From NCBI GenBank assembly GCA_030690165.1, contig JAUYHF010000033.1, positions 1-64,000 of the forward strand: a stretch of 64,000 nucleotides of DNA, read 5' to 3'. This DNA comes from Deltaproteobacteria bacterium (GTDB lineage: Bacteria; Desulfobacterota; GWC2-55-46; UBA9637). Below, one piece after another: positions 35,350 to 56,656 of this stretch; the first letter of the stretch is position 1; every line of letters begins with the position of its first letter. The notes under the pieces were generated by a model that did not search any database, was not told where the DNA came from, and saw nothing but the letters and a program-made list of their open reading frames with translations. The position numbers were made by a program, and so were the translations under genes.

Positions 35350-35427
35350 ACCCCGTTAGAAGTCTCCTCCGTCAGGGGTAAGCCCTGATGGAAGAATAGT
35401 TTCCTGATAGGTAAACTTCTAACAGGG
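35350..35427 (-). promoter_or_regulatory. Large nested hairpin in the parA leader
   Basis: ACCCCGTTAGAAGT (35350-35363) pairs with ACTTCTAACAGGGT (35414-35427), 13 of 14 positions. Within it TCCGTCAGGG (35368-35377) pairs with CCCTGATGGA (35383-35392) around a 5-nt loop. The element lies 13 nt upstream of the parA start on the minus strand. The outer arm resembles the flank of another hairpin (38090-38119) in front of mnmG. It matches no riboswitch class I know. Confidence 0.55.
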
Positions 35428-50295: not shown

Positions 50296-51066
50296 ATGCT
50301 CGCCAAACGTATAATACCCTGTCTTGATGTAAAAGACGGCCGAGTCGTAAAGGGTATAAGTTTTGTTCAGCTTAAGGATGCAGGAGACCCTGTAGAATGT
50401 GCCAAGGCATATGAAGAACAAGGGGCGGACGAGATGGTCTTTCTGGACATAACCGCATCCTATGAAAAAAGAAACATTATTATTGACATTGTTGAAAGGA
50501 CAGCCACAGAGGTTTCTATGCCGCTCACAGTTGGCGGCGGCATAAGGACACTGGAGGATATAAAAACCTTACTTCGGGCAGGCGCGGATAAGGTGTCAAT
50601 CAATACCACAGCCGTAGAAGACCCGGAGTTTGTAAAAAAGGCGTCTGAAAGGTTTGGAAGCCAATGTATTGTTGTTGCCATTGACGCAAAGAGGAGAGAG
50701 GCGCTTGTGCCAGCATGGGACGTCTATACCAACGGCGGAAGAAAAGACAGCGGGCTTGACGCGGTTTCCTGGGCAAAGAGGGTGGAAGTGCTTGGCGCAG
50801 GCGAGATACTCTTGACCAGCATGGACAGGGATGGCACAAAGGAGGGATACGACATAGCTCTCACATCAAGCATATCAGAGAAAGTTGGCATACCTGTTAT
50901 TGCATCAGGCGGCGCAGGCAGCCTTGAGCATCTTTACACCGCATTTAAAGAGGGAAAGGCAGATGCTGTGCTTGCAGCCTCTATATTCCACTTCGGCGAG
51001 TTCACCATCCCGCAGACAAAAAGATTTCTTAAAGAAAAGGGGATAAATATAAGAGAAGAATATTAA
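50296..51066 (+). CDS. hisF: Imidazole glycerol phosphate synthase, cyclase subunit
   Basis: (beta/alpha)8 synthase making IGP and AICAR from PRFAR with ammonia from HisH. It has [18 protein letters not shown] with catalytic Asp11, [10 protein letters not shown], the second catalytic Asp in [15 protein letters not shown] and [11 protein letters not shown]. 256 residues. AGGAGATGGG precedes the ATG. It is 40 kb from hisBHA. It converges on korC with only 15 nt between stops. Its side product AICAR (ZMP) is the precursor of the ligand sensed by the ZTP riboswitch of the neighbouring operon. Confidence 0.96.
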
Positions 51067-51081
51067 AGAAATCTTTTCCTG

Positions 51082-51630
51082 TTATACCTTAAATCCTTTT
51101 GCTTTATCAAAACCAATCTGAAGGGCTTTTTTATTCAAATCAAGAAATGCGGCAGGAACCCGTGCGAGTACCGCCCTTTCAAGCGCCTCGTGGGAGATAA
51201 TCTTTGTAATCTCGGTTATCATACCCAAAGCAATTATATTGGCAACTATGGTTTTGCCAAGTTCATTCCTTGCAATAGTCGTTATAGGAAAAGAGTAGGC
51301 CTTGAAATTTCCGGAGGGAATATTCTTTACCTCGTCTGAATCCACAAGCAGTATGCCGCCGTCCTTTATGTCCTTATAGTATTTTGTGCATGCCTCCTGT
51401 GTCATGGCAAGCATGGCATCAATGCTGGTTGCCTTTGGGTAATCTATCTCCTCATCGCTTATTATAACCTCACTCTTGGATGCGCCGCCCCTTGACTCAG
51501 GGCCGTATGACTGGCTCTGCGAAGCGTTCTTGCCGCCGTATATTGATGCGGCCTCTGCCATTATAATACCAGCCAGAATTATACCCTGGCCGCCTAAACC
51601 GCTGAATCTCATTTCATATCTCTGTCCCAT
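51082..51630 (-). CDS. korC: 2-oxoacid:ferredoxin oxidoreductase, gamma subunit (KorC)
   Basis: Gamma subunit of the 2-oxoglutarate synthase, 182 residues, with EMRFSGLGGQGIILAGIIMAE in pieces, SYGPESRGGASKSEVIIS and the adenine-binding-like fold of the family. ATG 51630 has ATGGAGG 7 nt upstream, supplied by the end of the heptad repeat; an in-frame extension to 51714 reads through that repeat and is unlikely to be used. It is last in the sucCD-kor operon. Confidence 0.92.
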   Translation of the reverse strand: MGQRYEMRFSGLGGQGIILAGIIMAEAASIYGGKNASQSQSYGPESRGGASKSEVIISDEEIDYPKATSIDAMLAMTQEACTKYYKDIKDGGILLVDSDEVKNIPSGNFKAYSFPITTIARNELGKTIVANIIALGMITEITKIISHEALERAVLARVPAAFLDLNKKALQIGFDKAKGFKV

Positions 51631-51640
51631 TATAACCTCC

Positions 51641-51735
51641 ATGTCGCTTTGCTCCAATGCAAAATGCAAAGTGTAAATTTCAAATTTAAAAAACCTTAAT
51701 TTTACAATTTGCAATCTTCAATTTACAATTAGACA
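51641..51735. repeat. Heptad hairpin repeat between korB and korC
   Basis: Units CAATTTG, CAATCTT, CAATTTA on one arm and TGCAAAA, TGCAAAG on the other form an imperfect hairpin with 7-nt period. On the minus strand it ends TTGGAGCAAAGCGACATGGA, which carries the ribosome-binding site of korC. The same end appears at 4584-4606 and 52625. Confidence 0.8.
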
Positions 51736-51750
51736 TTCATAGAATATCGC

Positions 51751-52614
51751 TTACTTCCCCTGCGCCTTTGCCATTAACTTCTCATATTCCTCGCAATATT
51801 CCGGTCTCTCTGTTTTATGCAAAACCCCTCTCAAAAGTTTTCCCTGTAGCTGCTCCGGGGTCATTTTAGCTGCTTGAGCCACAGAAACAGTCCCTTCTTT
51901 CTCAACCTTCTCCATCATCTCAGATGCGCTCTTCATTTTGTTAAATCTTCCGTAATAGGTTGGGCAGGAATCAAGGATATCCACCACTGCCGTGCCTTTG
52001 TGCATGATAGCGTCATAGATTGTCTTTTCAAGCTCCTGGCAGTGATACGCAGTCCCCCTTGCCACAAATGTTGCGCCTGCAGCCTTTGCAAGATTACATG
52101 TGTCAAATGTCGGCTCAATGCTTCCGTATTTTGCTGTCGTTGCTATCATGCCCTGAGGGGTTGTTGGCGAAGACTGTCCGCTGGTCATACCATAGATATA
52201 ATTATTGTAAACCAGAATAACCATATCCATATTCCTTCTGCATGCATGGATGAAATGATTCCCTCCGATAGCCAATGCATCTCCATCTCCGGTTGTTATA
52301 ATCACTTTAAGTTTTGGCTTTACCAATTTAAGCCCTGTTGCATAAGCAATGGCCCTTCCGTGAAGGGTATGGAGTGTGTTGAAATCCAAATAGCCCGGCG
52401 TCCTGCTGGAGCAGCCTATGCCGGAGACCATGGCAATGTCGTCCTGCGGAATGCCTGTTGCATGGATAGCCCTTAAAAGGCTCTTCATCACTATTCCGTG
52501 CCCACATCCAGGACACCATAAATGCGGAAGCTTGCCTTTTCTCATATAAGAACTATAATCAAAGGGTTTTTTCTCTTTATAAGGAACTGTTGCTATTGCA
52601 GCCTGTGTAGACAT
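51751..52614 (-). CDS. korB: 2-oxoacid:ferredoxin oxidoreductase, beta subunit (KorB)
   Basis: TPP-binding subunit that, with KorA, interconverts 2-oxoglutarate and succinyl-CoA plus CO2 using ferredoxin. It has WCPGCGHGIVMKSLLRAI, GIGCSSRTPGYLDFNTLHTLHGRAI in pieces and the TPP motif TGDGDALAIGGNHFIHACRRN. 287 residues. ATG 52614 has GGAGG 6 nt upstream, again at the end of a heptad repeat; an in-frame extension to 52653 lies within that repeat. Confidence 0.93.
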   Translation of the reverse strand: MSTQAAIATVPYKEKKPFDYSSYMRKGKLPHLWCPGCGHGIVMKSLLRAIHATGIPQDDIAMVSGIGCSSRTPGYLDFNTLHTLHGRAIAYATGLKLVKPKLKVIITTGDGDALAIGGNHFIHACRRNMDMVILVYNNYIYGMTSGQSSPTTPQGMIATTAKYGSIEPTFDTCNLAKAAGATFVARGTAYHCQELEKTIYDAIMHKGTAVVDILDSCPTYYGRFNKMKSASEMMEKVEKEGTVSVAQAAKMTPEQLQGKLLRGVLHKTERPEYCEEYEKLMAKAQGK

Positions 52615-52624
52615 TGTATCCTCC

Positions 52625-52745
52625 ATGTCGCTTTGCTCCAATGCAAAATGCAAAATGCAAAGTGCAAAGTGTAAATTTCAAAATTTAAAAAACCTTAATT
52701 TTGCAATTTGCAATCTTCAATTTACAATTAGACATTCATAGAATG
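52625..52745. repeat. Heptad hairpin repeat between korA and korB
   Basis: Nearly the same sequence as 51641-51735, one or two TGCAAAA/TGCAAAG units longer (CAATGCAAAATGCAAAATGC). The long stretch AATTTGCAATCTTCAATTTA is shared with the korB-korC copy. The left end carries the korB ribosome-binding site. Similar copies in neighbouring junctions suggest local duplication or gene conversion. Confidence 0.8.
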
Positions 52746-52749
52746 TCGT

Positions 52750-53952
52750 TTACCCGTCTATCATATCCCTTGCAACCATCACATCAGCGGGAATCACTGT
52801 CGCATCAACCGGCTTGCCAAGAATGGCGTTCATTATCTGCTTCGGGTGAATCGGGTCTGTATCAACCCTGAATATGCCTCTTACCTCGCATCTGCCCCTG
52901 GATGCGCGCTGCACCTCATGTACAATCTGGCCAAGGTTCATCTCCGGCACTATAATGGTCTTCACCTGTTTTGCCATCTCCTCTACTGCATCATCAGGGA
53001 ACGGCCAGAGGGTTAATGGCCTTAAAAGCCCTGCCTTAATGCCTTTGCTCCTGAGCTCCTTAACGGCAAACTTTGCGCTCTTTGCGCACACACCGTATGC
53101 AAAGACCCCAATCTCCGCGTCGTCAAGATAAAACTCCTCATTCTTCCAGATAGTCTCTCTGTTATCGTATACCTTTTTTACAAGTCTTTCGTTGGATTCC
53201 TGGATAAGCTTTGTATTGCCGCTGGGAAAGCCGTCCGGCGCATGATAAAGCGCTGTAATATGGAACCTGTAACCTTCGCCGTAAGCAGCCAGCGGCGCAA
53301 CCTTGCCGTTTTTTACTTCATAAGATTTGTATTCTGAAGGAGGACAGGTTGGCTTTGCCCTTTCAATCACCTCTATCTCTCCAGGCTCAGGAAGGGTAAC
53401 AGCCTCTCTCATGTGACCTATGACCTCGTCATATAATATCAGCACAGGCGTCCTGTAGATCTCAGACAGGTTAAATGCCCTTATGGTTTCATGCAGCGCT
53501 TCCTGCACGGAAGAAGGGCTAAGGGTAATGGCAGGATGGTCGCCGTGGGTTCCCCATTTTGCCTGCATTACATCAGACTGGCTTGGACCTGTTGGATAAC
53601 CTGTGGACGGACCGCTCCTCATAACATCTACGATGACGCACGGTACCTCAGCCATGCACGCATAGCCGATGCCTTCCTGCATAAGAGAAAAACCGGGGCC
53701 CGATGTCGCTGTCATTGACTTTAGGCCGCCAAGCGCAGCCCCGACAATTGCGGATACGCTTGCAATCTCATCTTCCATCTGAATAAATACGCCGCCCATC
53801 TTTGGGAGCTTTGCAGCCATAACCTCCATAATCTCAGTGGACGGTGTAATTGGGTAACCTGCATAAAATCTGCATCCTGCATAAAGTGCACCCTCTACGC
53901 ATGCCTCATTACCCTGTATAAATTTCCTCTGTTTGCCTTTTTTTATGGTCAT
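52750..53952 (-). CDS. korA: 2-oxoacid:ferredoxin oxidoreductase, alpha subunit (KorA)
   Basis: Pyrimidine-binding subunit, 400 residues. It has FIQGNEACVEGALYAGCRFY, AGYPITPSTEIMEVMA, QMEDEIASVSAIVGAALGG, TSGPGFSLMQEGIGYA, and the C-terminal VPEMNLGQIVHEVQRASRG. The neighbouring sucCD genes favour 2-oxoglutarate as substrate over pyruvate. GGAGAG lies 5 nt before ATG 53952. In autotrophs the enzyme works in the reductive TCA direction, otherwise oxidatively; direction cannot be read here. Confidence 0.93.
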   Translation of the reverse strand: MTIKKGKQRKFIQGNEACVEGALYAGCRFYAGYPITPSTEIMEVMAAKLPKMGGVFIQMEDEIASVSAIVGAALGGLKSMTATSGPGFSLMQEGIGYACMAEVPCVIVDVMRSGPSTGYPTGPSQSDVMQAKWGTHGDHPAITLSPSSVQEALHETIRAFNLSEIYRTPVLILYDEVIGHMREAVTLPEPGEIEVIERAKPTCPPSEYKSYEVKNGKVAPLAAYGEGYRFHITALYHAPDGFPSGNTKLIQESNERLVKKVYDNRETIWKNEEFYLDDAEIGVFAYGVCAKSAKFAVKELRSKGIKAGLLRPLTLWPFPDDAVEEMAKQVKTIIVPEMNLGQIVHEVQRASRGRCEVRGIFRVDTDPIHPKQIMNAILGKPVDATVIPADVMVARDMIDG

Positions 53953-54264: not shown

Positions 54265-55137
54265 TTATTTCTTTAACAACTCCATAATTGTCTTCCCAAT
54301 ATCCGCAGGGGTCTTTGTAACCTTTATCCCTGCCTTCATCATTGCCTCAAACTTTTCCTCCGCAGTTCCCTTGCCTCCCGATATTATCGCGCCTGCATGT
54401 CCCATCCTCTTCCCCTTCGGCGCTGTAACGCCTGCGATATAGCCCACCACAGGCTTTTTAACATTCCTCTTTACAAATTCCGCAGCCTCTTCCTCTGCTG
54501 TGCCGCCTATCTCGCCTATCATAATCACGGCATCCGTATCCTTATCCTTTTCAAACATCTCAAGCGCTTCTATAAAATTAGTGCCGTTCACAGGATCTCC
54601 GCCTATGCCAACACATGTTGACTGCCCCAAACCCAATCTTGTCAACTGGTCAACAGCCTCATAAGTAAGCGTGCCGCTCTTTGAAACAACGCCGACCCGC
54701 CCTTTTTTATGTATATGGCCCGGCATGATGCCTATCTTACATTCATCAGGGGTTATAACCCCCGGACAATTTGGCCCGATAAGCCTGGATTTTCTGCCAT
54801 CCATAAATCTTTTGACCTTCACCATATCCAGAACAGGTATCCCCTCTGTTATGCACACCACAAGCTCTATTCCTGCATCCACCGCCTCCATTATCGCATC
54901 TGCCGCAAATGCCGCAGGCACATATATTACAGATGCGCTTGCGCCGGTCTTTTTTCTTGCCTCATCCACTGTGTCAAAAACAGGAATACCGTCAACATTC
55001 ATGCCGCCTTTCCCCGGCGTTACGCCGCCCACCATCTTTGTGCCGTATTGAACCATCTGCCTTGTGTGAAATTGCCCCTGTTCGCCGGTTATTCCCTGAC
55101 AGATTACCTTGGTATTTTTATTTACAAGGATGCTCAT
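54265..55137 (-). CDS. sucD: Succinyl-CoA ligase alpha subunit
   Basis: Carries the phospho-histidine of succinyl-CoA synthetase, 290 residues. It has [34 protein letters not shown] and the active-site [20 protein letters not shown] in segments, with His in GHAGAI. It links succinate, CoA and NTP to succinyl-CoA, the substrate of the Kor enzyme in the reductive direction. 28 nt separate it from sucC. Confidence 0.96.
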
Positions 55138-55165: not shown

Positions 55166-56335
55166 TTAAAATGTCTTTGCTGCTTGTACTACCTTTTCCG
55201 CTGCCTCGTCCATCTTTTCCGCAGTTATAATATTTAAACCTGATTCAGATAAAATCTTTCTGCCCAAATCCACATTCGTCCCCTGCAAACGGACAACCAG
55301 CGGAACCTTTATGCCAACCTCTTTTGCGGCAGCTATCACACCCTCCGCGATTATATCGCATCTCATTATCCCGCCGAATATGTTTATCAAAACCGCCTTT
55401 ACCTTTTCATCTGACATCAAAATCTTAAATGCCGCAGTAACCTGATCCTTGTTTGCGCCGCCGCCCACATCAAGAAAATTCGCAGGCATGCCGCCGTAGA
55501 GTTTTATGATGTCCATTGTCGCCATTGCAAGACCAGCGCCATTTACCATACATCCTATGTTGCCGTCAAGCGCAACATAATTAAGGCTGTGCCGTGACGC
55601 ATCCACCTCTTTCGGGTCTTCTTCATCCAGGTCGCGCATATCATATATATCCTTGTGCCTGAAAAGCCCGTTATCGTCAAAACCCATCTTTGCGTCCAAT
55701 GCGATAATATTCCCGTCCTTTGTGATAACAAGCGGGTTTATCTCAGCCATTGATGCGTCAGAATCAACAAATGCCTGATAAAGTCCGGTCATAAATTTAA
55801 CAGCCTTATTCACAATGGACTTGTCTATATTGAGTCCGAATGCAAGTTTCCTTGCCTGAAATGCCTGCAAACCAACAGCAGGGTCAACATACTCCTTTAA
55901 AATTTTTTCAGGGCTCCTAACTGCAACCTCTTCTATCTCAACCCCGCCTTCCGATGATGCCATAACAACAACTCTCTGTGTGCCTCTGTCAACAACAATC
56001 CCAAGATAAAGTTCCCGTGCTATCTGACAGCCCTCTTCTATAAGAACCTTTTTTACCTTTTTGCCCTCAGGCCCTGTCTGATGGGTTACCAATTTTTTGC
56101 CGAGCATCACCTCTGCAAATTCCCTTGCCTCCTGATGATTCTTCGCAAGCTTCACACCGCCTGCCTTGCCCCTGCCGCCTGCGTGTATCTGCGCCTTTAC
56201 AACGCAAAGCCTATCGCCCATGAAGTTCTTGGCAATATCTTCTGCTTCATCAGGCGTCCACGCAACCCTCCCCTTCGGCACAGCAACACCATATTTTATC
56301 AAAATCTCTTTTGCCTGATATTCGTGGATATTCAC
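55166..56335 (-). CDS. sucC: Succinyl-CoA ligase beta subunit
   Basis: ATP-grasp subunit, 389 residues. It starts [20 protein letters not shown], has [34 protein letters not shown] and the C-terminal [18 protein letters not shown] start at 56335 is supported by GAGGAGG 11 nt upstream. It is first in the sucCD-korDABC operon and lies just after the terminator of a ZTP riboswitch. Confidence 0.96.
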
Positions 56336-56360: not shown

Positions 56361-56377
56361 AAAAAAACCGTCCGGCC
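56361..56377 (-). terminator. Terminator arm and T-run of the ZTP riboswitch expression platform
   Basis: On the minus strand GGCCGGACGG (56368-56377) is followed by seven T (56361-56367), 26 nt before sucC. The arm can pair with CCGTCTGGGC in P3/pseudoknot of the riboswitch (56454-56463; nine of ten pairs counting G-U). Pairing would give a Rho-independent terminator and would break the aptamer, so ligand binding should turn the operon on. Confidence 0.75.
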
Positions 56378-56381
56378 ATTT

Positions 56382-56447
56382 TAGTTGGGAGTTCGTAGTA
56401 CGGAGTATGTGTTTTTACTTCTAACTCCGAACTCAAAACTCATAACT
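56382..56447. repeat. Heptad hairpin inside the riboswitch expression platform
   Basis: On the minus strand the left arm has AGTTATG, AGTTTTG, AGTTCGG, AGTTAGA and the right arm complements AGTT-based units (ACTCCGT, ACTACGA, ACTCCCA, ACTA). Four positions of each 7-nt unit pair and three vary. It fills the loop between the two halves of the terminator stem. Confidence 0.75.
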
Positions 56448-56451
56448 TAAT

Positions 56452-56532
56452 CGCCCAGACGGTCGGCTTGTCTTTCAATAAAACCTCTTCCGCTCCCCGG
56501 TGGTAGCCACCTTTATTCCGTCAGTTGCGGAA
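56452..56532 (-). ncRNA. ZTP (pfl) riboswitch
   Basis: The minus strand matches the ZTP/ZMP aptamer. P1 is TTCCGC with GCGGAA (56527-56532 / 56488-56493). ACTGACGG and GGTGGCTACCACC (P2) follow, then the invariant CCGGGGAGCGG. After a linker comes GCCGACCGTCTGGGCG. The GACGG of the first loop can pair with CCGTC of the last segment, the expected pseudoknot. These RNAs sense ZTP/ZMP, which rise when 10-formyl-tetrahydrofolate is short. A TTGACA on the minus strand at 56581-56586 may be the -35 of its promoter. The controlled genes are sucCD and kor, not purine or folate genes. Confidence 0.9.
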
Positions 56533-56656
56533 AAAACCGGTTACTACTATGCACAGGTATGGTAACACAAGAAAAGCTGTTGTCAAGCGATTTTCGGAAA
56601 TTTGTCAACCCAAAGGAGGACAGTTTACTTGCTGCTAACACCGCATCTGAAAATTA

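Follow-up and report, generated by a model that had tools for sequence, protein, structure and literature searches.

Upstream of the sucCD-korDABC operon lies a real, canonical ZTP riboswitch in a gene context that is both unusual and class-wide. We consider it likely that this RNA is a ZMP/ZTP-responsive transcriptional ON switch acting on sucCD-korDABC, and one copy of a regulon that extends over the whole class to which the genome belongs. The enzymes encoded in the operon interconvert succinate, succinyl-CoA and 2-oxoglutarate, and the operon is probably the succinate-to-2-oxoglutarate arm of the reductive TCA cycle. The RNA belongs to a known family, and the regulon appears to be new as far as the literature other than Kim et al. 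2015 goes; in that literature, a search for ZTP riboswitches in connection with citrate lyase, the reductive TCA cycle or isocitrate dehydrogenase yielded nothing relevant.

Leader of the sucC operon

The Rfam cmscan search of the window, that is, of the whole 64-kb stretch of DNA analysed here, produced a single riboswitch match, to RF01750 (56.4 bits versus the gathering score of 39, E = 1.8e-6), which covers the model at full length (positions 1-86 of 86). The covariance-model check proposed in the first-pass annotation hence gave a significant match, and the ZTP aptamer with P1, P2 and the GACGG/CCGTC pseudoknot described there is confirmed. P1 (UUUUUUCCGC/GCGGAAGAGG), P2, P3 (GCC/GGC) and the pseudoknot between J1/2 and L3 are all found (Table 1). 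Folded alone, the aptamer is no better than its own shuffles (z -0.01), as expected, because a nested folding model cannot represent a pseudoknot; this part of the case is carried by the covariance model and by conservation, not by fold energy. In the Fusobacterium ulcerans aptamer ZMP is contacted by G63, G71 and the U-G of J1/2 (PMC11419147), and in our mapping of the numbering the equivalent bases here are unchanged. The RNA is a canonical member of the known family, with ZMP/ZTP as the predicted ligand.

Table 1. Features of the sucC leader, the operon and its convergent neighbour
Feature	Position	Strand	Basis
Promoter TTGACA, 16-nt spacer, TACCAT with TG extension	56559..56586	-	consensus scan, 10/12 matches
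ZMP/ZTP aptamer, full length	56446..56538	-	cmscan RF01750
Pseudoknot 5' side GACGG in J1/2	56518..56522	-	sequence; class conservation of ACUGACGG
Pseudoknot 3' side CCGUC in loop 3, doubles as terminator 5' arm	56458..56462	-	sequence, fold
Intrinsic terminator, long hairpin 56464-56366, then seven T (56367-56361)	56361..56464	-	fold, conservation
sucC, ADP-forming succinate-CoA ligase beta, GTG start	55166..56335	-	NF001913, 597 bits, cut-off 370
sucD, succinate-CoA ligase alpha	54265..55137	-	NF004230, 501 bits, cut-off 336
korD, ferredoxin-like subunit, 68 aa	54044..54250	-	Pfam Fer4
korA, 2-oxoacid:acceptor oxidoreductase alpha	52750..53952	-	NF006412, 570 bits, cut-off 411
korB, 2-oxoglutarate:ferredoxin oxidoreductase beta, start uncertain	51751..52653	-	NF007207, 341 bits, slightly below cut-off 364
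korC, gamma subunit, start uncertain	51082..51714	-	NF006323, 214 bits, slightly below cut-off 235
hisF	50296..51066	+	NCBIfam

The region 56465-56357 folds at -40.6 kcal/mol, the mean for shuffled sequences being -21.8 (z -5.83; 0 of 200 shuffles were as good). The base of the hairpin is CCGUCUGG/CCGGACGG, and its outer pairs join ACCGUCUGG with CCGGACGGU, next to which the run of seven T begins. Since the 5' arm contains the same CCGUC that forms the pseudoknot, aptamer and terminator are mutually exclusive, and the earlier observation that a terminator arm pairs with the last segment of the aptamer holds. The terminator was also correctly placed upstream of sucC, the distance being 25 nt from the T-run to the GTG codon rather than 26; the start codon is preceded by GAGGAGG. 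The interior of the hairpin was considered as a mobile repeat; GAGTTCGGAGTTAGAAGT is present only once in the window, and therefore its repeat nature is unsupported.

An extended -10 promoter is located immediately upstream of the aptamer, and transcription is predicted to start a few bases upstream of the latter. We considered a start downstream of the aptamer, which would leave the RNA out of the sucC message, but the consensus scan of the interval between the aptamer and sucC revealed no promoter-like site, so that, as judged by sequence, such a start is unsupported. The layout of the leader is that of a transcriptional ON switch, the direction of control being a prediction. At low ligand the terminator arm would capture CCGUC and transcription would end before sucC, and when a Z-nucleotide is bound, the pseudoknot would keep CCGUC and RNA polymerase would continue into sucC. 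Published ZTP riboswitches are mostly of the ON type, with the ligand holding the pseudoknot and thereby blocking the terminator (PMC7337938, PMC2864571).

The order sucC-sucD-korD-korA-korB-korC (56335-51082, minus strand) proposed by the first-pass annotation is supported by NCBIfam and, for korD, by Pfam Fer4, with galU diverging upstream. The 2-oxoglutarate:ferredoxin oxidoreductase is present as korDABC, with korB and korC slightly below the curated cut-offs. The peptide LHFALEQSDME occurs in the mechanically called starts of both korB and korC (window positions ~52620-52653 and 51640-51680, minus strand); therefore the two genes each appear to have a short repeated sequence in the intergenic stretch before them, and the true starts are probably further in than called.

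Gene contexts of the aptamers in the class

RF01750 aptamers were found in 47 of 63 genomes of the class. We retrieved 101 of them, brought them into the same orientation and assigned the downstream genes by tblastn with representative proteins, their identities being based on sequence matches to NCBIfam, Pfam and PDB; this gave the list of downstream genes in related genomes that the first-pass annotation had suggested compiling. The most frequent first gene is the NADP-isocitrate dehydrogenase gene (IDH) or aclB (36 of 101; 22 genera, 6 families), followed by rnfC of the Rnf complex (n = 30; 12 genera) and an aminotransferase gene that precedes serA (n = 20). The remaining aptamers precede a Na+/H+ antiporter (n = 5), sucC (n = 4), pntA of the transhydrogenase or pyrophosphatase-pntA (n = 4) and Kup (n = 1), and one stands at a contig end. 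Hence the wiring, called unusual in the first-pass annotation, is indeed so, but the word understates it: the window copy is one of about 100 in the class, and the majority of these are found on operons for the reductive TCA cycle or for electron supply.

Published neighbours of ZTP riboswitches are mostly purH, fhs, pfl, glyA and folD (PMC2864571). None of these five genes follows any of the 101 class aptamers; purH, in particular, is found in 59 of the 63 genomes, never with the switch. At the window locus the usual purine and one-carbon neighbours, typical of RF01750 without defining it, are likewise absent, sucC standing in their place. Thus, the RNA shares the aptamer, the pseudoknot, the overlapping terminator and the predicted ON control with the described pfl RNA motif, and differs from it in the targets, which are sucCD-kor here and IDH-aclBA, Rnf and transhydrogenase in the class.

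Such a sharp departure from the published contexts could mean that the class aptamers kept the fold and changed the ligand, sensing another small molecule tied to the carbon or redox state; the absence of the classic purine and folate genes, and the purH genes that are common in the class and never switched, would then be explained. We regard this as unlikely, since in our mapping the bases that correspond to the reported ZMP contacts have not changed, the core matches RF01750, and 20 of the 101 aptamers are still located on a serine-synthesis operon, a known neighbour of ZTP riboswitches. ZMP/ZTP remains the preferred ligand.

Two described systems are close to parts of this picture. In Bacillus and Oceanobacillus, tandem ZTP/glycine riboswitches precede a serine-synthesis gene (PMC9481103), so that the first step from 3-phosphoglycerate to serine is under ZTP ON control, as is predicted for the 20 aminotransferase-serA operons here; in the class, however, the aptamer is single, no glycine switch was noted, and the control reaches the carbon-fixation cycle. 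Tandem ZTP aptamers before moeA, a single case with predicted OFF control (PMC9481103), offer an earlier example of a target that does not belong to folate or purine metabolism, whereas the class has about 80 loci outside the C1 and serine genes, with predicted ON control.

In a phylum-wide draw, RF01750 was present in 25 of 395 genomes, 14 of these 25 belonging to the class. The outside-class set comprised 13 genomes with one aptamer each, 11 from this draw and two reached via sucC relatives, whose kinship is not given. Twelve of the 13 aptamers precede serine hydroxymethyltransferase, formate-THF ligase or aminotransferase/serA genes (the names glyA and fhs come from NCBIfam for three and from reading the sequence for the others), and one precedes a BenE-type transporter. 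Since the contexts outside the class are of the serine, glycine and fhs kind, the switch seems to have been extended to operons of the reductive TCA cycle and of redox metabolism within the class itself.

The window's own genome (G000) contains three RF01750 matches, and two of the aptamers are situated on consecutive reductive-TCA operons, sucCD-kor and icd-aclBA. In the latter the NADP-isocitrate dehydrogenase gene is followed by aclB-like and aclA-like genes. The aclB-like protein has a Pfam Citrate_bind domain (68 bits) and PDB matches to citryl-CoA synthetase and ATP-citrate lyase; the aclA-like protein has CoA-ligase domains and matches citryl-CoA synthetase in PDB and, weakly and distantly, the ATP-citrate lyase alpha chain. 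Neither matched NCBIfam at 1e-60. The aclA-like protein (G000:C4:37600-46000, L034) is 903 aa long, versus 617 aa for the ATP-citrate lyase alpha chain in PDB, and the match is confined to its N-terminal CoA-ligase part. The third aptamer precedes a Kup-type potassium transporter, which scores below the curated cut-off. The Kup leader (L033) is nearly identical to the pntA leader of G002 (L036), where the operon order is pntA-pntA2-pntB-pyrophosphatase-Kup; therefore the Kup aptamer probably stems from a pnt operon whose first genes were lost. The rnfC and serA genes of the window's genome have no RF01750 match, and thus the regulon varies among members of the class.

Physiological reading of the regulon

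In 1982 ZTP was reportedly put forward as an alarmone that signals a lack of 10-formyl-THF. If 10-formyl-THF runs short, ZMP and ZTP would rise, and with them SucCD-Kor, Icd-Acl, Rnf (supplying ferredoxin), transhydrogenase (supplying NADPH) and serine synthesis; more CO2 would be fixed and more reduced ferredoxin, NADPH and serine made, the last being the donor of C1 units, and this would answer the C1 shortage. In a reductive-TCA autotroph, as these bacteria are predicted to be from their genomes, C1 units would come from serine and hence from fixed carbon. We tentatively propose that ZTP/ZMP acts through riboswitches as a global carbon-hunger alarmone in the whole class; taken jointly over reductive-TCA CO2 fixation, the machinery that provides ferredoxin and NADPH, ion homeostasis and serine (C1) synthesis, this claim seems to us a little short of an even chance. 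If true, the class-wide regulon would mean that C1 shortage is read as a call for fixed carbon and reductant, and would provide a way of controlling CO2 fixation through riboswitches.

The reactions of succinate-CoA ligase, Kor and IDH can go either way, and oxidative cycles also contain these enzymes. The cycle could accordingly run oxidatively, with the switch tuning 2-oxoglutarate/glutamate and ATP for purine synthesis rather than CO2 fixation. This is highly unlikely, as ATP-citrate lyase-like genes, a mark of the reductive direction, stand at the end of the commonest target operon, and Rnf and transhydrogenase provide the ferredoxin and NADPH needed by the reductive steps.

The first-pass annotation had pointed to hisF as the physiological link. 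Its convergence on the operon stands; the link itself was dropped, being an argument from position on which no finding depends, with nothing connecting the switch to hisF. The regulon suggests a simpler logic, in which the C1 units come from serine and CO2 fixation.

Conservation and variation of the leaders

Pairs 4-10 of P1 are standard in 89-97 of the 101 class aptamers with several pair types, i.e. P1 covaries, and ACUGACGG is present in 99 of 101. Most aptamers outside the class have GGCG/CGCC in the pseudoknot, whereas the class has GACG/CGUC, a compensated change. A terminator arm complementary to CCGUC, described by the pattern GRYGG-T4+ that allows for G-U pairs, is found in 89 of 100 class leaders versus about 3 expected by shuffling; the stricter pattern GACGG was found in just 29 of 100, because it ignores these pairs.

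The sucC switch has a narrow spread, as it is present in four genomes of two genera in one family (G000, G001 and G003 from one genus, G006 from the other), while in G002 the aptamer is absent and sucC is behind another gene, and in G004, G005 and G007 the search for a sucC relative found none. The promoter, the aptamer core and the base of the terminator align in all four leaders, and the middle of the hairpin varies; CTTGACA is kept in the three related ones. The confinement to one family, together with the loss of such a switch from the G002 IDH leader, might indicate that the aptamer before sucC was inserted by chance or is decaying, having been carried in with a promoter and playing no regulatory role. 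We give hardly any weight to this explanation, given the full score, the intact pocket and the strong overlapping terminator in the window, and the retention of promoter, aptamer and terminator base in two genera despite the drift in the hairpin interior. A regulatory switch on sucC is thus preferred.

G002 belongs to the window's genus and is 99% complete. Its IDH leader (L252, G002:C7:83400-84900, minus strand) retains the promoter and the 5' half of the aptamer, joined directly to the region of the ribosome-binding site, the 3' half and the terminator both being deleted. Such a deletion fits a functional terminator lost along with its antagonist. The allele may be seen as a natural loss-of-control one.

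In other operons a second promoter-like site (p<=0.1) is present between the terminator and the gene, namely in 24 of 34 IDH, 15 of 30 rnfC, 11 of 20 serA and 4 of 4 antiporter leaders (for example, L038, L082 and L117, with sites such as TTGACA-17-TTTAGT); the window's sucC leader lacks such a site. Therefore control of these operons is perhaps partial, and what the switch contributes may just come on top of a basal level of expression.

Several genomes of the family contain a palindromic element of ~30-90 bp with the ends ACCCCGTTAGA/TCTAACGGGGT, which looks like a MITE or a REP-type repeat. It occurs at 35351-35420 of the window and in L044 (2260-2338), L035 (2991-3070), L252 (1130-1209) and L033 (5467-5496), and in G001 and G006 it separates the ZTP terminator from sucC. 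A similar palindromic insert, CCCCCACACCAAA...TTTGGTGTGGGGG, is located between J1/2 and P2 in G006:C62:2461-2581, G003:C140:4783-4902 and L253 (G007), at the same point of the aptamer in different operons, and aptamers of G032 carry other inserts at this point.
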